Position numbers and translations under genes: made by a program. From positions 372,001 through 436,000 of the forward strand of contig MFPR01000004.1 of the NCBI GenBank assembly GCA_001784175.1: a stretch of 64,000 bases of DNA, read 5' to 3'. Below, one piece after another: positions 1 through 17,798 of this stretch; position 1 is the first letter of the stretch; each line of letters starts with the position of its first letter. This DNA is from Candidatus Lindowbacteria bacterium RIFCSPLOWO2_12_FULL_62_27 (GTDB lineage Bacteria; Lindowbacteria; 2-12-FULL-62-27). Under the pieces are notes generated by a model. The model saw only the letters and a list, made by a program, of their open reading frames with translations. It did not search any database and had not been told where the DNA came from.

Positions 1-734
1 ACACAATGAGAGACACGGTCGAAAGCATCGATGTCGGCACCGACAAAAAGGGGGGCAGCATCGAAAGGATTTACTCCAAAAGTTTCCGGGATTTTTTTAG
101 CCGGACCTTTAAGTCCCTCGGAATCAAGATGGCAATGAATGAAATCCCGAAACTCAAGAGTCAATGGTTGAATGAAAGGCGGGCTGCTTGGATGAAGAAG
201 AATCCGGCAACGCCTGTGCCGAACCAGCGGGAACGTGCGTGGGAAGCATCATTTCCAAGACGTCTACAATTCGATATGGGCTATGGCGAAGACGTTGCGG
301 AGGTCAACCCCAAGAATGGCCCGTCGAGATTTGTTCGCGCCCAGCCTGTCAACGATCGGATTGAAGTTTGGACGAACGACGTCAGACAGGCGCAGATTCG
401 TACTGTGAAGAATCGGATTCTGTTTCGGCACATCCAGGACAATTCACCGCAGGGACGGACTCTTGAAAGAATTTTCCGGAGAAACGACATGATTCAGTTG
501 GATGCGGTTCAAAAAAGGGGGAGAAAAGGAATAACTGGAAAAAGTTACGAGGCCGGTGAATATATGGTCGTTAAAATCGAGAAAGGCGGAAAATTTACGG
601 CCGTTCCGGCGCACAGGGGGAAAGGCAGAGAAAATCAGCGCCAAGTTTCGCAGCGTGAAATCGCCAAACTGTGCGGGGTTTCGCTTTCTCCGAAAAGGCG
701 GAAGCCATCCCGCTCAACGAGCGAAAGCGGTTGA
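1..734 (+). CDS. C-terminal part of a large protein, probably the end of a Cas9 effector (partial, 5' end outside window)
   Basis: The frame is open to the left edge (ACA precedes the ATG at 6), so this is probably the 3' end of a longer gene. The last part has the layout of a Cas9 PAM-interacting domain: a basic segment, then RIFRRNDMIQLD (about residues 155-166 counted from the ATG at 6), a Gly/Lys loop, GEYMVVKIEKGGKFTAVPAHR (about 184-204) and a basic tail. In many Cas9s a 'gD.v.l...G.y.V..i..g.i.l.p.h' pattern occurs just before the stop. It lies upstream of cas1-cas2-cas4 on the same strand and the repeat is type II-like. No RuvC or HNH residues are visible because they would lie left of the window. 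A different CRISPR effector or an unrelated basic protein is possible. Confidence 0.5.
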   Translation, partial: TMRDTVESIDVGTDKKGGSIERIYSKSFRDFFSRTFKSLGIKMAMNEIPKLKSQWLNERRAAWMKKNPATPVPNQRERAWEASFPRRLQFDMGYGEDVAEVNPKNGPSRFVRAQPVNDRIEVWTNDVRQAQIRTVKNRILFRHIQDNSPQGRTLERIFRRNDMIQLDAVQKRGRKGITGKSYEAGEYMVVKIEKGGKFTAVPAHRGKGRENQRQVSQREIAKLCGVSLSPKRRKPSRSTSESG

Positions 735-785
735 CAAACTTGTTTTTCAACCGTCGGATCCGAACGACGCGCGGCACCCATCAAG

Positions 786-814
786 TTGACATCCCCGGCG
801 TCCGTACGGATACT
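786..814 (+). promoter_or_regulatory. Candidate sigma70 promoter for the DUF4160/DUF2442 pair
   Basis: TTGACA at 786-791, a 17-bp spacer and GATACT at 809-814. This lies in the 173-bp gap after the putative effector gene and about 95 bp before the DUF4160 start. It would let the small pair be transcribed independently of the upstream gene. A second TTGACA occurs at 731-736 but has only a poor -10 (TCGGAT). Confidence 0.45.
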
Positions 815-907
815 CAATTATCAGTTCAGACATACTCCCCGTCTTCCCATCGGGTCCTTCAGGATAGCCGAGACCAGGATGCCGGGTAGATTCTTTTTGG
901 AGGTCGG

Positions 908-1144
908 ATGCCGACGGTCTTAAGAAAGGGGCCGTATCGTTTTTTCTTTTTTGCCGGTGATCGCGGCGAGCCGCCGCACGTTCACGTTGAGCGTGACAAC
1001 AAGGTCGCCAAGTTTTGGCTGGAACCGGTTCGGTTGTGCGGGAGCGGGGGATTCTCACGGGCTGAAATTCGCCGGATACTCAAGTTGGTGTTCGCTTATG
1101 CGAGTGAATTGAAGGAGGCGTGGCATGCGTACTTCAACGGTTAG
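908..1144 (+). CDS. DUF4160 family protein
   Basis: A 78-residue protein with the DUF4160 signature: a short basic N-terminus, FFFFAGDRGEPPHVHVERD (the 'EPPHVHV' motif) and a C-terminal helix ending LKEAWHAYFNG. The start is preceded by GGAGG at a good distance. It overlaps the next gene by 20 bp, the usual arrangement of DUF4160 with DUF2442. Such pairs have been proposed as toxin-antitoxin-like modules; I know of no established biochemistry. Its place between a CRISPR effector and cas1 is odd and suggests insertion of a mobile small module. Confidence 0.85.
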   Translation: MPTVLRKGPYRFFFFAGDRGEPPHVHVERDNKVAKFWLEPVRLCGSGGFSRAEIRRILKLVFAYASELKEAWHAYFNG

Positions 1145-1454
1145 GACGGAAACGCCGCTTGCGGAAGACGTGACGCTGACGGCCGACACGATCCATGTCG
1201 ATTTGAGCGACGGCAGAACCATCTCCGCGCCGCTGGCGTGGTTTCCGAGGCTTCTAAACGCGTCGCAAAAGGAAAGAGACAACTGGCGGCTGATCGGCAA
1301 GGGACAGGGCCTGCATTGGGAAGACATCGACGAGGATATCAGCGTTGGGAATCTCCTGATGGGTCAGGCATCCGGCGAAAGTCAGCAGTCTTTCGAGAAG
1401 TGGCTCTCGGCAAGGAAACCCCGCCGTTCAACCTCACACGGACAGCGACGCTGA
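1125..1454 (+). CDS. DUF2442 family protein
   Basis: A 109-residue protein with the typical DUF2442 core: a strand-rich N-terminus with 'DLSDGRTISAPLAWFPRLLNAS', followed by WRLIGKGQGLHWEDIDEDISV and a basic tail. The start codon lies inside the end of the DUF4160 gene, so the two are probably translationally coupled. It is the likely partner (candidate antitoxin or cofactor) of the upstream protein. The C-terminal extension after SVGNLLMGQ is basic and may be disordered. Confidence 0.85.
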   Translation: MRTSTVRTETPLAEDVTLTADTIHVDLSDGRTISAPLAWFPRLLNASQKERDNWRLIGKGQGLHWEDIDEDISVGNLLMGQASGESQQSFEKWLSARKPRRSTSHGQRR

Positions 1455-1549
1455 ATACAAAAAAGTGAATATCTTGAAATCCCGTCAACCGGACGGTAAA
1501 CTCGAGTCGTGAAAAGAAAACGATTCCGCTCGACATCGGAGGTGGCCGT

Positions 1550-1834
1550 ATGAAAAAGGAAATGACGGTTGAAATTCCGTTCGGGGACGAAGGATATTCC
1601 GTTTTGAGCCACTTGAGAAATCTTTTCGTCCATCCGCTGGGCGAAGGCATGCCTCATAACGACCTTTCACTTTCCACAACTACCGGCATTCGAATTCCGC
1701 GGCTACGGAAGATTCTGGCAGTGTTTGAAAAAAGTGGATTTGTCAGTATCGAGCGGTCAGGGAACTACCGATGGTTTATATGGATTGAGGGGGAGGGCCT
1801 TCAAGTGTGTGAGAAAATGATGAAGGCGGGATAG
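1550..1834 (+). CDS. Small winged-helix-like hypothetical protein
   Basis: A 94-residue protein starting 7 bases after a GGAGG site. The middle (about residues 36-72) reads like a winged helix: HNDLSLSTTTGIRIPRL as a helix-turn-helix, then RKILAVFEKSGFVSIERSG and a beta wing YRWFIWIEGEG. I do not recognise a named family. The next gene starts 11 bp downstream, so the two form an operon and this may be its regulator or DNA-binding partner. The stretch is visibly AT-richer than the cas genes, consistent with separate acquisition. Confidence 0.55.
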   Translation: MKKEMTVEIPFGDEGYSVLSHLRNLFVHPLGEGMPHNDLSLSTTTGIRIPRLRKILAVFEKSGFVSIERSGNYRWFIWIEGEGLQVCEKMMKAG

Positions 1835-1845
1835 GCGGAACGAAG

Positions 1846-2292
1846 TTGGTAAAGACTGTTTTTATCGCGCACGACTATTATGAAATAGGGGGCCGAAAAA
1901 GGAAGTACCGGCGTCTTATATCAACAGCCCTCAAACATACCGGCTTTCGTCCCACCTATGCCGATCACGCCATCCAAAACGTTTCAATATTGAAGGAAAT
2001 CATTCGGAAAATTAGAAACGCCTCTTTCTGCATTTTGGACATCACAGGCCGCAAAAAAAGTACGGCGCTGAATCTGAACGTTCTTCTGGAACTCGGGATG
2101 GCCTATGGCGCCGGCAGGCCGGCCTTTCTGATCTACGAAGAGCGGAGTGTCCATCCATCCCTCATCAAGGAGATTTCCGACCTGGGAAATGAATTGCACT
2201 TTCCCTACCGCGGCCTTAACGCACTTCCGATTCTAATCAGAAAAACCATTCTCGACGTTGTAAGGAGAAGCCGTCCCCGAAAGGGGCGTTGA
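1846..2292 (+). CDS. TIR-like / nucleoside deoxyribosyltransferase-like protein next to cas1
   Basis: 148 residues from a TTG start with an AGGCGGAACGAAG leader. The N-terminus KTVFIAHDYYE resembles the first strand of TIR and nucleoside 2-deoxyribosyltransferase folds. The segment about residues 62-100 (SFCILDITG, then LNLNVLLELGMAYGAGRPAFLIYEE) matches the pattern 'a.~vI.D.t...N.NV.~ElG.A...g.p.ili' of that superfamily, with the Glu of ELG as candidate nucleophile. Proteins of this fold include NAD-cleaving immune effectors. It ends 16 bp before cas1 on the same strand and may be co-transcribed with it. Enzymatic function is inferred from fold-level similarity only. Confidence 0.55.
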   Translation: MVKTVFIAHDYYEIGGRKRKYRRLISTALKHTGFRPTYADHAIQNVSILKEIIRKIRNASFCILDITGRKKSTALNLNVLLELGMAYGAGRPAFLIYEERSVHPSLIKEISDLGNELHFPYRGLNALPILIRKTILDVVRRSRPRKGR

Positions 2293-2308
2293 CGACAAGC
2301 CGCCCCTG

Positions 2309-3487
2309 ATGCCCTTCTCCGACGCTCATCGCATCGAACCTCCCCCGCAGCAGATCAATTTGCTGACCGGCGAACCGGAAATGCCGTCCGCGCGGGTCGA
2401 ACATTTGCCGGTGGACGACGTCCCTTACACGCTGGAGGACGGCATCACGGTGGTGCAAAGCCCGTCGGGACTGACGGCGTCCATTTCGGGCAACGGCTGT
2501 CATGTCGGCAAACGAAGCGAGCGGCTGGTCATACGGAAGAAAGACGGCCGGGCGGTGTGGCAGATTCCGATGGCGCGCCTGCACGAAATCATCCTCGACG
2601 CGCGAGGCCTGTCGATCACGACCGATCTTCTGACGGCGCTGGCCGAACGGGGGATCCGCACCAGCATCATCGCGTTCAACGGCAAGCCGGTGGCGGAGAT
2701 CGCTTCGCCGCTTCTGACGGCCGTGGTCGAAACGCGCAAGGCGCAATTCGAGGCGCTGACCAACGGACGGGGACTGCGGCTCGCCAAGGCTGTTGTCGCC
2801 GGAAAAATCCGGAACCAACTGCGGCTTCTGAAATATTTCGGAAAATATATTTCCACTTCCCAGCCTGACCTGTTTTCCTCCCTGCAGGAGGACATCTCCG
2901 CAATGGATGACGCGCGGAGGGGGATAGAACAGGTCGCGGAAACCTCGCTCGACGAAACCCGCGCACAACTGATGGGCATCGAGGGACAGGCCGGGCAGAG
3001 GTATTGGTCCGCCGTCGGCCGGATCATCGGCGGGCGCGTACCGTTTCCGGGACGCACGCATCGCGGCGCATCGGATCCCGTCAACGTCATGCTGAATTTC
3101 GGATACGGCGTTTTGTATTCGCAAGTTTGGGGCGCGGTACATTTCGCGGGGCTGGAACCGTTCGCCGGATTTCTTCACACCGACCGGGCCGGCAAGCCCA
3201 GCCTCGTTTTCGACATGGTCGAGGAATTTCGCGCGCCGGTGGTCGACCGGACGGTCATTTCTATGGCGCAACTCGGCCAGGTGCGTGCGCTCAGGACGCC
3301 GGGAATGCTGGACGGCGATCTGAAAACGGAATTCCTGTCGAAACTCTTGGAACGCATCGACGGGACGGAATCCTTCGACGGCGGGAAATACAGAATTCGT
3401 TCGATTATTCAAAAACAATGCCGGCTGGCGGCGTCCTTCATTCGAGGCTCGATCGAGGAATATCGGCCGTTCCGGTTCAAGTGGTAG
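2309..3487 (+). CDS. cas1: CRISPR-associated endonuclease Cas1
   Basis: Integrase subunit of the Cas1-Cas2 spacer acquisition complex. It is 392 residues, somewhat long; an N-terminal extension of about 45 residues (NLLTGEPEMPSARVEHLPVDD) precedes the beta domain. The C-terminal helical domain shows the conserved metal-site regions: the Glu region around GQAGQRYWSAVG, the His in YSQVWGAVHFAGLEPFAGFLH and the Asp/Glu in PSLVFDMVEEFRAPVVDR. It is followed 4 bp later by cas2 and then cas4, an order seen in type II-B and some Cas4-containing type II-C and other loci. No cas3, cas5, cas7 or cas8 is present. Confidence 0.95.
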   Translation: MPFSDAHRIEPPPQQINLLTGEPEMPSARVEHLPVDDVPYTLEDGITVVQSPSGLTASISGNGCHVGKRSERLVIRKKDGRAVWQIPMARLHEIILDARGLSITTDLLTALAERGIRTSIIAFNGKPVAEIASPLLTAVVETRKAQFEALTNGRGLRLAKAVVAGKIRNQLRLLKYFGKYISTSQPDLFSSLQEDISAMDDARRGIEQVAETSLDETRAQLMGIEGQAGQRYWSAVGRIIGGRVPFPGRTHRGASDPVNVMLNFGYGVLYSQVWGAVHFAGLEPFAGFLHTDRAGKPSLVFDMVEEFRAPVVDRTVISMAQLGQVRALRTPGMLDGDLKTEFLSKLLERIDGTESFDGGKYRIRSIIQKQCRLAASFIRGSIEEYRPFRFKW

Positions 3488-3491
3488 AACG

Positions 3492-3827
3492 ATGGCCGAC
3501 ATGCGCTGTCTCGTCGTCTATGACATCGAGGAGGACAAAGCGCGGACGAAAATCAGCGAGGCGTGCCTGGATTTTGGGCTGGAGAGAATTCAGATGAGCG
3601 CGTTTTGGGGACTCCTGTCGCGTACGCGCCAGCGCGAGCTCTATCACCGGATCAAGCGGCTTCTGGGGGATGGGTACGGGCGTTTCTTCATTCAGCCCAT
3701 TTGCGCGCACGACGAGGACACACGATTCATTCACGAACAGGGCGACCCCGGCGACCGGACGCTCCTGCGGTCGCTCATTGAGGAACAAAAGACGCGGGAT
3801 CAGGCGCGCGTCCTGAAATTCGAATGA
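3492..3827 (+). CDS. cas2: CRISPR-associated protein Cas2
   Basis: 111 residues, normal for the family. It begins with MRCLVVYDIEEDKARTKISE, containing the conserved first strand and Asp of the ferredoxin-like fold, followed by LERIQMSAFWGLLS and the closing strand RFFIQPICAHDED. It bridges two Cas1 dimers in the adaptation complex. The gene starts 4 bp after cas1 and its stop overlaps the cas4 start (ATGA), so the three adaptation genes form one translational unit. Confidence 0.95.
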   Translation: MADMRCLVVYDIEEDKARTKISEACLDFGLERIQMSAFWGLLSRTRQRELYHRIKRLLGDGYGRFFIQPICAHDEDTRFIHEQGDPGDRTLLRSLIEEQKTRDQARVLKFE

Positions 3828-4414
3828 CGCCGGCCGCTTCGGACATCGTCACGGTCAGCGATTTGAAACAGTTCGCCTTTTGCCCGCGCATCCCCTATTT
3901 TTCCAGAGTCATGCCGATCCGGCCTCCGGCCACGGAGCTGATGGAACGAGGTCAGCGGTTGGAGGAGGAATTTCGGCGGCTGGAGGTGCGGCGAAGCTTG
4001 GGCCGATACGGATGGGACCGGGCAACAAGACATTTCAGCGTATACGCGATGAGTGAATCATGCGGCATCGCCGGTCGGATCGATCTGGCGCTCGAACGCG
4101 ATGACGCCGTTGCCATCGTTGACGTGAAGGCGAGCGGGGGATTTGTCGGAGACAATCACCGGATGCAGGCGGCGGCGTATCAGGTATTGGCCGGCGAGCA
4201 TTTCGGCAAACCCTGTATTGGCGCGTTCATGTATTTTCTGGATCGCCGATGTGTGGAACGTCTGGAGCCGGACGCCGCATGGAACGAACGACTCCGGCGA
4301 GCAATAGACACCATTCGGGCCATGTCAACAACCCACGATTTCCCGCCCGCAACGGCACATCGCAAAGCCTGCGAGCAATGCGAATATCGCAATTTCTGCG
4401 GCGATGTATTCTGA
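3824..4414 (+). CDS. cas4: CRISPR-associated exonuclease Cas4
   Basis: 196 residues of the RecB-type nuclease family that trims and PAM-selects prespacers for Cas1-Cas2. The iron-sulfur cysteines are visible: one near the N-terminus (FAFCPRIPYF) and three at the C-terminus (CEQCEYRNFC). The nuclease core includes AGRIDLAL and the IVDVKAS motif with Asp and Lys, followed by QAAAYQ. It overlaps cas2 by 4 bp. Cas4 in a locus with a probable Cas9 is restricted to type II-B and a minority of II-C-like systems. Confidence 0.93.
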   Translation: MTPAASDIVTVSDLKQFAFCPRIPYFSRVMPIRPPATELMERGQRLEEEFRRLEVRRSLGRYGWDRATRHFSVYAMSESCGIAGRIDLALERDDAVAIVDVKASGGFVGDNHRMQAAAYQVLAGEHFGKPCIGAFMYFLDRRCVERLEPDAAWNERLRRAIDTIRAMSTTHDFPPATAHRKACEQCEYRNFCGDVF

Positions 4415-4430
4415 TTTCGCAAATATCCCG

Positions 4431-4465
4431 GCAAATTTCGCAAGCTTGACGCTTGCGAAATGTGC
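4431..4465. other. Long perfect-type hairpin between cas4 and the CRISPR array
   Basis: Arms GCAAATTTCGCAAGC and GCTTGCGAAATGTGC are complementary with one mismatch, separated by the 5-base loop TTGAC. It starts 17 bp after the cas4 stop. No T-run follows on either strand, so it is not a classical intrinsic terminator. It could end cas4 transcripts from the left and, if the array is read leftwards, array transcripts from the right. Confidence 0.6.
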
Positions 4466-4507
4466 CTCACTCATTCCGAACCCAACTCACACAGCTTCAT
4501 AACTGCG

Positions 4508-4530
4508 GAGCGGGAATTGTAGTCCCGCTC
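4508..4530. other. Inverted-repeat junction at the left end of the array
   Basis: GAGCGGGA at 4508-4515, immediately left of the first repeat, is the exact reverse complement of TCCCGCTC inside repeat 1 (4523-4530), leaving a 7-base loop. The 8 bases are identical to the minus-strand sequence inside every repeat. It may be a remnant of a repeat or a leader-end signal. Confidence 0.4.
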
Positions 4531-4543
4531 AAAAAAAATTCAA
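4516..4543 (-). promoter_or_regulatory. Sigma70-like promoter embedded in each CRISPR repeat (repeat 1 shown)
   Basis: On the minus strand repeat 1 contains TTGAAT (4543-4538) and TACAAT (4521-4516) separated by 16 bp. Because the repeats are identical, the same promoter recurs in repeats 2, 3 and 4, with transcription beginning in the spacer to the left of each repeat. Promoters of this kind inside repeats are known from type II-C arrays of Neisseria meningitidis and Campylobacter jejuni, where they give crRNAs without precursor processing. Confidence 0.55.
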
Positions 4544-4769
4544 GGGTGAAAGCAGATACTCGTCTCACAGAAGTCTCTGACAAATTTATTGTAGTCCCGC
4601 TCAAAAAAAATTCAAGGGTGAAAGCCATGGCCGCTCTCGCAAGCGGCGGGGGCCGCGGATTGTAGTCCCGCTCAAAAAAAATTCAAGGGTGAAAGTCACA
4701 ACATCCGTATGCGCTTGAATCCACTCTTTGATATTGTAGTCCCGCTCAAAAAAAATTCAAGGGTGAAAG
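4516..4769 (-). CRISPR. CRISPR array, four 37-bp repeats and three spacers
   Basis: Identical repeats occupy 4516-4552, 4588-4624, 4659-4695 and 4733-4769. The plus-strand repeat begins ATTGTAGTCCCGCTC, continues with eight A residues and ends TTCAAGGGTGAAAG. Spacers are 4553-4587 (35 bp), 4625-4658 (34 bp) and 4696-4732 (37 bp). Read on the minus strand the repeat ends GGGACTACAAT, like the TACAAT or TAAAAT ends of Neisseria and Campylobacter type II-C repeats. That, and the promoter inside each repeat, is why I assign transcription to the minus strand. The opposite orientation is not excluded. The array is short, with no degenerate terminal repeat, so it may be young or rarely used. Confidence 0.95.
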
Positions 4770-15500: not shown

Positions 15501-16101
15501 CAAGCCCGTCGGAAATAATGAGCGCCTCGTTGAAAACAAAAAGCGAAGGAATCTGTTGTTTGTACGTCTGAAACTGGTTGAAGGCCGTCCAGATGGTGGC
15601 ATTCTCATCGGCGGGATTTTTGAGTTCAATCACGGCCAGCGGCAACCCGTTCACAAAAACAACTACGTCCGGCCGCCGATTGTGCTGACCCTCGACGACC
15701 GTGAACTGATTGACGGCCAGCCAGTCGTTGGCGGCGAGATCGTTAAAATCCACAAGCCGAACCCGGTCCCCCGCGATCGTCCCGTCCGTCCGGCGATACT
15801 CAACCTCGACACCGTCAACAAGCATCCGGTGGAACGCGCGATTGCATTGTACGGGCGACGCATGCGTCGCCCCTACGCGAATCACTTTTCGGAACGCCTC
15901 GTCAATCGCCTCCGCCGGGATTTCCGGATTGAGTTTCCGCATCGCCCGGCGCAGTCGATCCGGCAATATAGCCTCGCCGTAATCTTGCCGCTCTGCCGCC
16001 TCCTCGCCCGGAGCGATGTCCGGCCCGTGCAAAACGGCGTATCCGAGCTCACCAAACCACGCGAGCGTGGCGTCTTCGACGGTGGATTCGGTGAGGGTCA
16101 C
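12502..16101 (-). CDS. hsdR: Type I restriction endonuclease subunit R with a C-terminal LexA/UmuD-like S24 domain
   Basis: Motor and nuclease subunit of the type I enzyme. 1199 residues, longer than the usual about 1000-1050. The N-terminal nuclease has [20 protein letters not shown] (PD...ExK); the helicase has [15 protein letters not shown] (Walker A), [10 protein letters not shown] (DEAH), GFTGTPI, and [23 protein letters not shown]. From about residue 1045 the sequence becomes S24-like: [36 protein letters not shown] with Ser1099 and [11 protein letters not shown] with Lys1144, the two residues of the LexA/UmuD catalytic dyad. A palindromic element is inserted in frame near residue 78. 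First-to-last order suggests it closes the hsd operon. Confidence 0.93.
15849..15876. repeat. 28-bp palindromic element inserted in frame in hsdR
   Basis: GTACGGGCGACGCA and TGCGTCGCCCCTAC form 14-bp inverted arms with one mismatch and no loop. Read in the hsdR frame it adds residues [10 protein letters not shown] near position 80, within a part of the protein where related HsdRs have no such sequence pattern that I recognise. Palindromes of this GGGCGACGCATGCGTCGCCC type are known as dispersed repeats in many genomes. Confidence 0.75.
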
Positions 16102-16121
16102 GGCTTAATGAGCACGATCTG

Positions 16122-16601
16122 CTACGGAGCCTGCATCTTCCTAAACTTGGCCAGATACTCCGAAACGAATTCATCCCGATACTTGCAATCGATATTTTTT
16201 GAATCCAGCAGAGGTTTCAGTCTCGTATCGGTTGTCACGATGACGCACTTCTGAATGGTGAAATAGGCCTGGAGTATGTAGTGATCATCCGGATTGACTT
16301 GTTTCTGAAGGTCGCCCCATAACGGCTTCAGTTGCCCGGCTTCGATGCGTATGGTTTTGACGGAGTTTGACCAAAACTCGCTCCTATAAAACTTCGCGAT
16401 TTTCCGAAGTGTTGCGTCAAAGCCCGCATTTTTCCAAAAATTAAAGGTCTTCCGTTCAAACTTGCTTCCCTTGACGATAACTATCGGATTGCAAATCGTT
16501 CGAATGGCAAGCAGAAAGGCGGACGCTTGCTTCTGGCGCTCAACGCCATTCTCCCCCAAGAGGTCGGCCCATAACCACTCATCAAGGATCAAAGGCGACA
16601 T
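16122..16601 (-). CDS. PIN-like nuclease-type hypothetical protein
   Basis: 159 residues. ILDEWLWADLLGENG at the N-terminus and VNPDDHYILQAYFTIQKCVIVTTDTRLKPLL at about 104-134 supply the spaced acidic residues and the 'D-D...T.D..L' end of a PIN domain. It starts 12 bp after the ATPase stop, so the two are co-transcribed. Base composition is clearly lower in GC than hsdR. ATPase + PIN-like pairs are frequent in defence islands; a metal-dependent RNase or DNase acting on ATPase command is plausible but unproven. Confidence 0.55.
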   Translation of the reverse strand: MSPLILDEWLWADLLGENGVERQKQASAFLLAIRTICNPIVIVKGSKFERKTFNFWKNAGFDATLRKIAKFYRSEFWSNSVKTIRIEAGQLKPLWGDLQKQVNPDDHYILQAYFTIQKCVIVTTDTRLKPLLDSKNIDCKYRDEFVSEYLAKFRKMQAP

Positions 16602-16613
16602 ATACCCAACTCA

Positions 16614-17798
16614 TTAGACGCCGGTGAATTTCTTCAAATCCTCGATCTCAGCCTCTATGAACGACGTAAGCCCTCCGTCAATTTGTCCCTTTTCATTAAT
16701 TTTTTGCGGCTGAAATTTCGTCGTCTTTTTTTCTTTGAGCGTGAGATAACAGCCTATGTCAGACGGACTCGCGATCCCTTCGGAAACAGCAGTCGCGATC
16801 GAGGACACAAACTGCTCACTGTGAGTGGTAAGGAGGACCTGTTTGCCTTCATCTTTGACGAACGCGCAGAGCGCCCTTGCAAAATTTCTAATGACAGTGG
16901 GGTGCAGATGAACCTCCGGCTCTTCAATCAAAACCGTGGAAATCTCCGGCCGGTAGAGCTTGGCCCACAAATAAACCACCTGATTAATTCCAAAGCCGTC
17001 ATTGATCAAATTGACGGGGATTCTCGATTGCTTGTCCGTGGTCTGCATGAATACAGTTGCGGTACCGGCGGGAGTGTAGGTGCGAAAATCCCGCCCAAAG
17101 ATATCTTCGAGATACGTCGAAATACGTCCGGCCATGTGCTGATCGTTGATGATGATGGACGCCACTTCGTCTTCCGACGTGGGCAGCGGAGAAATGGCAA
17201 CGGGCGTGTAATTGTATTTGAAAAATCCCCGTTTGTGCGGAACGATGTCGATGGCTTTCAGACGTTCCGGCACGGAATTGATCAAGGCGGCTATCTCCGC
17301 CGCTTTTTGCTGTTTTTCGGCAGTGGCATTTTTGGGAACCACCGATCCGCCAACGCCGTTCCAATTGATTGTGTATTCTTCGCCGCTGTCGGTATGGCTA
17401 AACGGAAAATTTTGATTGAGTCCATACGGAATAGCGACTTTGCCCTTCAGGTTTATAGAGGCGATTTGAAGCGATATGTCCGCCGACGCTTTCGACAAAG
17501 ACAGCCCGTATGAAGCTTCAACTCCATTTTTGGCGTAGCGGACGGAAAACTCGACGCTTCTCTTATCATCGTGATCAAAAACACAGGCATTCAAGCCGCC
17601 CATATCCATAAACCCGATATGGAAAAATCCGTCCACAGGTCTATTCGGGTTCAATATGAAATTTCGAAGCGTCATCAGAGAATAGAGGACAGTCGACTTG
17701 CCAGCCGCCGTCGGTCCGTAAAAGACGGTGATGGGAGACAGATTCAATTCCTCCGACTCTACTGAACGAAAATTCTTTAAACTAATTTTTGTCAGCAT
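16614..17798 (-). CDS. AAA15/OLD-like ATPase
   Basis: 394 residues with an ABC/SMC-type ATPase fold. MLTKISLKNFRSVESEELNLSP and Walker A FYGPTAAGKST (about residues 26-36) open the protein; a long variable middle is followed by VLIEEPEVHLHPTVIRNFARAL (Walker B and signature) and VLLTTHSEQFVSSI (D-loop/H-loop). Similar ATPases are the sensor part of two-gene defence modules (OLD, PARIS and similar). A GGAAGGAG site precedes the ATG. It lies inside the hsd operon but has its own promoter and lower GC, as expected for an inserted cargo. Confidence 0.88.
   Translation of the reverse strand: MLTKISLKNFRSVESEELNLSPITVFYGPTAAGKSTVLYSLMTLRNFILNPNRPVDGFFHIGFMDMGGLNACVFDHDDKRSVEFSVRYAKNGVEASYGLSLSKASADISLQIASINLKGKVAIPYGLNQNFPFSHTDSGEEYTINWNGVGGSVVPKNATAEKQQKAAEIAALINSVPERLKAIDIVPHKRGFFKYNYTPVAISPLPTSEDEVASIIINDQHMAGRISTYLEDIFGRDFRTYTPAGTATVFMQTTDKQSRIPVNLINDGFGINQVVYLWAKLYRPEISTVLIEEPEVHLHPTVIRNFARALCAFVKDEGKQVLLTTHSEQFVSSIATAVSEGIASPSDIGCYLTLKEKKTTKFQPQKINEKGQIDGGLTSFIEAEIEDLKKFTGV

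Follow-up and report, generated by a model that had tools for sequence, protein, structure and literature searches.

A type II-D CRISPR-Cas9 locus in Candidatus Lindowbacteria, probably mosaic by exchange of cas9 and its tracrRNA scaffold

Background

To which subtype of clustered regularly interspaced short palindromic repeats (CRISPR) systems does a locus belong in which a Cas9-like protein is accompanied by cas4? The question is raised by the left end of a 64,000-nucleotide (nt) stretch of Candidatus Lindowbacteria bacterium RIFCSPLOWO2_12_FULL_62_27 (assembly GCA_001784175.1, contig MFPR01000004.1). The whole of this stretch is called the window below and corresponds to G000:C4:372001-436000 of the source genome, G000. 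The initial annotation proposed the gene order Cas9 C-terminus, cas1, cas2, cas4 and array, and suggested a hybrid-looking subtype, the order resembling that of II-B systems and the repeat that of II-C systems. An archaeal Cas9 was reportedly described together with Cas4 in 2017.

In the 2025 classification, subtype II-D unites the former II-C2 with the systems of the small Cas9d, which have cas1, cas2 and cas4 in common (PMC12669027). The evidence given below indicates that the locus is very probably a complete II-D CRISPR-Cas9 system, of the branch formerly called II-C2, which became mosaic by exchange of cas9 and the scaffold of the trans-activating CRISPR RNA (tracrRNA) in one lineage. In our reading the subtype is one already known, combined with a mosaic that can be tested.

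Results

The open reading frame at positions 3-734 (plus strand) is the C-terminal 243 codons of a cas9d gene. In the recovered left-flank sequence (L003; a window position equals the L003 position minus 14000) this gene starts 2.4 kb left of the window, at L003:11603; it spans G000:C4:369603-372734 and encodes 1043 amino acids (aa). A longer frame from L003:11531 is less likely because it would overlap structured RNA. The effector is Cas9, as the initial annotation had supposed: the whole protein scored 452 bits against the NCBIfam Cas9d profile NF049971 (cut-off 375, E 6.9e-135). It stayed below the cut-offs of the general Cas9 profile (81 bits vs 100), the IscB profile (59 vs 175) and the II-B Cas9b/Csx12 profile (12.8 vs 399.4), the last of which rules out subtype II-B. 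Both motifs that the initial annotation had suggested seeking in the left flank, RuvC and HNH, are present: the protein has RuvC-I GIDFG, an arginine-rich bridge helix, RuvC-II ITIEFPK, HNH DHIFP...CRTCN (domain at residues 557-604) and RuvC-III NHAQDA. The RuvC and HNH motifs recur in two other Cas9d proteins, and the catalytic motifs are intact in sequence. The presence of the HNH domain also rules out a type V effector. In a Cas9 tree with five II-C Cas9s as the comparison set (II-A and II-B sequences left out), the Cas9s of G000, of G002 (another genus of the same family), and of Nitrospirae, Binatia and Acidobacteria were grouped (support 100/99) apart from those of II-C. A plasmid search with the G000 Cas9 gave no match, a phage search gave a single match of 30% identity around the HNH region, and scans of viral contigs using Cas9 and Cas1 alignments gave none that was confirmed.

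Downstream lie cas1 (2309-3487, plus strand; Pfam Cas_Cas1, E 1.4e-69), cas2 (3492-3827, plus strand; Pfam CRISPR_Cas2, E 6.9e-15) and cas4 (3824-4414, plus strand; Pfam Cas_Cas4, E 2.2e-13; PADLOC Cas4_II, E 1.1e-39; NCBIfam cas4, 96 bits, cut-off 65), followed by the array, so the Pfam matches and the array coordinates bear out the proposed gene order. Cas1 is extended at its N-terminus by about 50 aa, as are the Cas1s of G002 and of a further genome, G032, and it scored 73 bits against the type II Cas1 model (cut-off 120). In a tree of 16 Cas1 sequences it fell outside the II-C group (100/100) and beside type I Cas1s, loosely grouped with the II-D-like Cas1s of Nitrospirae and G032. The initial annotation had regarded a Cas1 grouping with type I as an argument against its reading, and the tree comes near to this; however, because the effector itself was recovered, the position of Cas1 does not count against a Cas9 system. 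The next-best Cas1 relatives beyond the Cas9d loci are in loci with class 1 effector genes, as judged by eye from sequence. The source genome has a second CRISPR locus on contig C6 (L004:8460-10464 and 16053-16678), with a type I-G-like cas4-cas1 fusion of 569 aa, a cas2 relative and a nine-repeat array, the repeat of which is unrelated to the II-D repeat. The cas2 gene of G032 ends with a perfect tandem duplication of 55 bp (L088:3605-3714), which may shift the reading frame of the gene.

The array (4516-4769) consists of four identical 37-nt repeats (4516-4552, 4588-4624, 4659-4695 and 4733-4769) and spacers of 35, 34 and 37 nt; on the CRISPR RNA (crRNA) strand, which is the minus strand, the repeat reads 5' CTTTCACCCTTGAATTTTTTTTGAGCGGGACTACAAT. 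The length and the II-C-like end of the repeat were thus described correctly. No further copy of it was found elsewhere in the G000 genome. The anti-repeat that the initial annotation had suggested seeking to the left was found upstream of cas9: L003:11412-11425 reads TTCAAGGGTGAAAG. The plus-strand repeat ends in the same 14 nt, which makes this a perfect anti-repeat for a minus-strand crRNA. It is this anti-repeat that fixes the crRNA strand. Ahead of it is a sigma-70-type promoter sequence, GTGACA-17-TATGAT, matching at 10 of 12 positions (0.1 expected in shuffles). The predicted tracrRNA, of about 190 nt (C4:369409-369602), is directly upstream of cas9; its region folds better than shuffles (z -3.2), and co-folding of repeat and anti-repeat gave a 14-bp helix. 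The sequence GAAAG(A/C)AGCCC occurs also in the tracrRNAs of Nitrospirae, Acidobacteria and Binatia, which are encoded upstream of cas9. Rfam gave only sub-threshold matches, mostly on a GC-rich palindrome. Left of the tracrRNA promoter there is a 146-bp palindromic element (L003:11196-11341; G000:C4:369196-369341) with 16-bp inverted ends CTTTCAATTACCCACA and flanking repeats TTCTACCGA, and one further full copy at C6:21050-21195; it looks like a small mobile element of the kind of miniature inverted-repeat transposable elements.

A promoter scan found a sigma-70-like sequence, TTGAAT-16-TACAAT, on the minus strand in all four repeats. II-C arrays are described as having promoters in their repeats and acquiring spacers at the 3' end (PMC12638026, PMC8092290). 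The II-C-like look of the repeat is most simply explained as a promoter, its TACAAT end being the putative -10 element. Because the degenerate repeat of the G002 array sits at the end distal to cas4, new spacers are probably acquired at the cas4-side end.

The G002 locus has the order cas9, 94-aa gene, TIR gene, DUF2442 gene, cas1, cas2, cas4 and array, with an identical 37-nt repeat. Cas1 is 93% identical between G000 and G002, whereas Cas9 is only 28% identical. At the DNA level the two loci are about 88% identical, both in the 94-aa and TIR genes (750 nt) and across cas1-cas2-cas4-array (2.3 kb); in 63 nt of tracrRNA promoter and anti-repeat they are 95% identical. The left edge of the divergence lies immediately after GAAGCCC in the tracrRNA (C4:369431), where the scaffold changes abruptly; on the right, the divergence ends at the 94-aa gene's ribosome-binding site. 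The two trees conflict. In the Cas9 tree, G000 joins Nitrospirae, Binatia and Acidobacteria, and a G000-G002 group was rejected by the approximately unbiased test (p-AU 0.0006); in the Cas1 tree, G000 and G002 are joined (100/99), and a G000-Nitrospirae group was rejected (p-AU 2e-13). Pairwise scores with shuffles were used for the scaffolds, in place of an RNA covariance model. Past the junction, the G000 scaffold matches two Acidobacteria scaffolds (z 9.2 and 8.1, with 0 of 1000 shuffles as good) and does not match that of G002 (z -0.6, 788 of 1000 as good); its matches to the Nitrospirae and Binatia scaffolds were not significant. The GCCC of the shared tracrRNA half pairs with GGGC in both the G000 and the G002 scaffold. 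From these results we infer that cas9 and its own tracrRNA scaffold moved as one cassette. Rapid divergence of cas9 was rejected as an explanation, since the G000 Cas9 groups with proteins from other phyla and the change in the scaffold falls at this point too.

The G000 locus is flanked by the genes for citramalate synthase and aspartokinase. In another genome, G001, some 2 kb separate these two housekeeping genes, with a single unrelated gene in that space; the G002 locus is at a different genomic place. The shared CRISPR genes are more alike than the two housekeeping genes, whose DNA identity between G000 and G002 is 77-78%; this suggests that the CRISPR locus was transferred between genera. 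Apart from this locus, G002 encodes a II-C-like Cas9 accompanied by cas1 and an array of six repeats (G002:C122, L030:1178-5874), and therefore has two type II systems in one genome. One scan of genome contigs found relatives of Cas9d in Binatia, Acidobacteria (partial or broken) and Nitrospirae. The Nitrospirae locus has cas9d, cas1-cas2-cas4 and an array; the Binatia locus (L068:9998-13444) has cas9d and a five-repeat array, with no cas1, cas2 or cas4 within 22 kb.

Four genes on the plus strand separate cas9 from cas1. The first two form a toxin-like pair: a DUF4160 gene (908-1144; Pfam PF13711, E 2.5e-17), with a weak match below the cut-off to the NCBIfam DhiT toxin, and a DUF2442 gene (1125-1454; Pfam PF10387, E 4.6e-20), the G002 relative of which is placed between TIR and cas1. 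The 94-aa gene (1550-1834) is kept in the sister locus with 86% aa identity, and its product had no family match in Pfam and NCBIfam profile searches. The fourth (1846-2292) is a TIR or nucleoside-deoxyribosyltransferase-like gene with a catalytic-type Glu at residue 82 (LLELGMAYG). Its product matched Pfam CAP12-PCTIR_TIR with 26.1 bits (cut-off 24.7) and the PADLOC TIR effector (E 8e-6); the best Foldseek matches were TIR and nucleoside-deoxyribosyltransferase folds, weak support because the query was a low-confidence AlphaFold model (predicted local distance difference test score 50; 47 for the 94-aa protein). The support for the TIR assignment is marginal but consistent. Toxin-antitoxin-like genes adjoin four II-D loci: the DUF4160/DUF2442 pair at 908-1454, DUF2442 alone in G002 (L029:13409-13738) and, both judged by eye, an antitoxin-PIN-like pair with a nucleotidyltransferase in G032 (L088:861-1996) and a nucleotidyltransferase at L062:8201-8548.

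Purifying selection acts on the TIR and 94-aa genes, for which the ratios of nonsynonymous to synonymous substitution (dN/dS) between G000 and G002 are 0.21 and 0.14, respectively. This, their position on the same strand within the cas gene string of both loci, their retention while cas9 changed, and the lack of any TIR relative at E 1e-6 among 384 other genomes would fit a working part of the CRISPR system, for example a back-up that depletes nicotinamide adenine dinucleotide if Cas9 immunity fails. However, both genes are absent from the Nitrospirae and Binatia II-D loci examined, the G000 and G002 loci are of recent common ancestry and therefore count as one observation, and defence genes often cluster without functional coupling; we consider such a role rather unlikely. 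A plasmid search with this TIR gene gave no match.

Discussion

The locus has the order tracrRNA, cas9d, accessory genes, cas1, cas2, cas4 and array. The Cas9d profile match, the deep Cas9 branch apart from II-C, the three adaptation genes and the predicted tracrRNA in the locus agree with II-D; the presence of cas4 and the position of both Cas9 and Cas1 outside the II-C groups disagree with II-C. Several points weigh against this assignment or against the mosaic. The locus is known from sequence and computation; the array is short, and none of its three spacers matched viral contigs; the four repeats are identical, so that their promoter is one observation, and the Cas9d repeats of Nitrospirae and Binatia end without the promoter element. 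In the Cas1 tree the II-D sequences did not come out as one resolved clade: a long Cas1 of type I-G fell among them, with weak support. The sample of Cas9d loci is small, and the mosaic is seen by comparison with one sister locus, between two draft assemblies.

The apparent swap of Cas9 could be an assembly artefact, the G002 contig having been put together from two organisms where they have short sequences in common. The G002 draft is indeed fragmented, with 150 contigs and a completeness of 81%, and it shares an identical run of 39 nt with G000 at the left junction. Such an artefact needs two independent joins, however, and the right junction has no long identical stretch; neither genome contains the other's Cas9, and the G002 scaffold retains the GCCC...GGGC pairing directly ahead of its own cas9. 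We therefore regard it as improbable. Weaker still is the proposal that the locus is a new, hybrid subtype in which a II-B adaptation module is combined with a II-C effector and array. In its favour are cas4 and the repeat end ACTACAAT, as in many II-C repeats. Against it, the effector is Cas9d by profile and tree and neither II-B nor II-C, its combination with cas1-cas2-cas4 is already defined as II-D (PMC12669027), and a promoter -10 element accounts for the TACAAT end, so that the features noted in the initial annotation stand while this reading of them is largely refuted and very improbable.

The II-D mosaic shares with published II-D systems (PMC12669027, PMC9755519) a Cas9d with RuvC and HNH, a tracrRNA beside cas9, cas1-cas2-cas4, zinc-ribbon-like CxxC pairs in the recognition lobe and a size within the 900-1050 aa of the II-C2 (MG33) family. 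It differs from them by the promoter in the repeat, as in II-C, and by the TIR-like, 94-aa and DUF4160/DUF2442 genes between cas9 and cas1. Like the II-C arrays with repeat promoters (PMC8092290, PMC12638026), it has a -10-like element at the repeat end and predicted transcription toward the likely acquisition end; unlike them, it has a Cas9d effector, cas4 and a Cas1 outside the II-C group. In situ shuffling of Cas9 is known in II-C systems of Flavobacteriales (PMC12669027, Extended Data Fig. 9), where a swap was defined by Cas1 identity of at least 90% and effector identity below 50%. G000 and G002 fall within these limits and likewise combine close cas1 with distant cas9, but here the system is II-D and the junction is inside the tracrRNA, scaffold and cas9 moving while promoter and anti-repeat stay. 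More generally, adaptation modules tend to stay fixed while effectors are shuffled (PMC6452270). No account of a tracrRNA-internal junction turned up in a literature search, with many subscription papers outside its reach.

A possible course of events is as follows. The tracrRNA would start at its own promoter just upstream of cas9, and its 14-nt anti-repeat UUCAAGGGUGAAAG would pair with the 5' end of the minus-strand repeat. The promoter in each repeat would start a short crRNA inside the next spacer, with transcription toward cas4. After presumed RNA processing, Cas9d with crRNA and tracrRNA would cut matching DNA by HNH and RuvC, and Cas1-Cas2-Cas4 would add spacers, most likely at the array end next to cas4. 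One of the two lineages would have exchanged cas9 and the tracrRNA scaffold, possibly by recombination at the conserved GAAAGAAGCCC joint, and kept its tracrRNA promoter, anti-repeat, repeat, TIR gene and adaptation genes. Whether the II-D tracrRNA generally has such a built-in exchange joint, the part from promoter and anti-repeat to GAAGCCC staying with the array and the scaffold travelling with cas9, is a suggestion that we make tentatively, its chance being a little short of even. If true, it would let a new Cas9 take over an array in one recombination step with immune memory kept.

The misleading II-B/II-C hybrid reading is thus settled as II-D, and full bacterial loci are added to a sparsely described subtype. 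The prediction follows that two very different Cas9s can share one crRNA but need different tracrRNA scaffolds, which may be useful for guide design, and the mosaic marks where a Cas9 swap could occur without loss of spacer memory.

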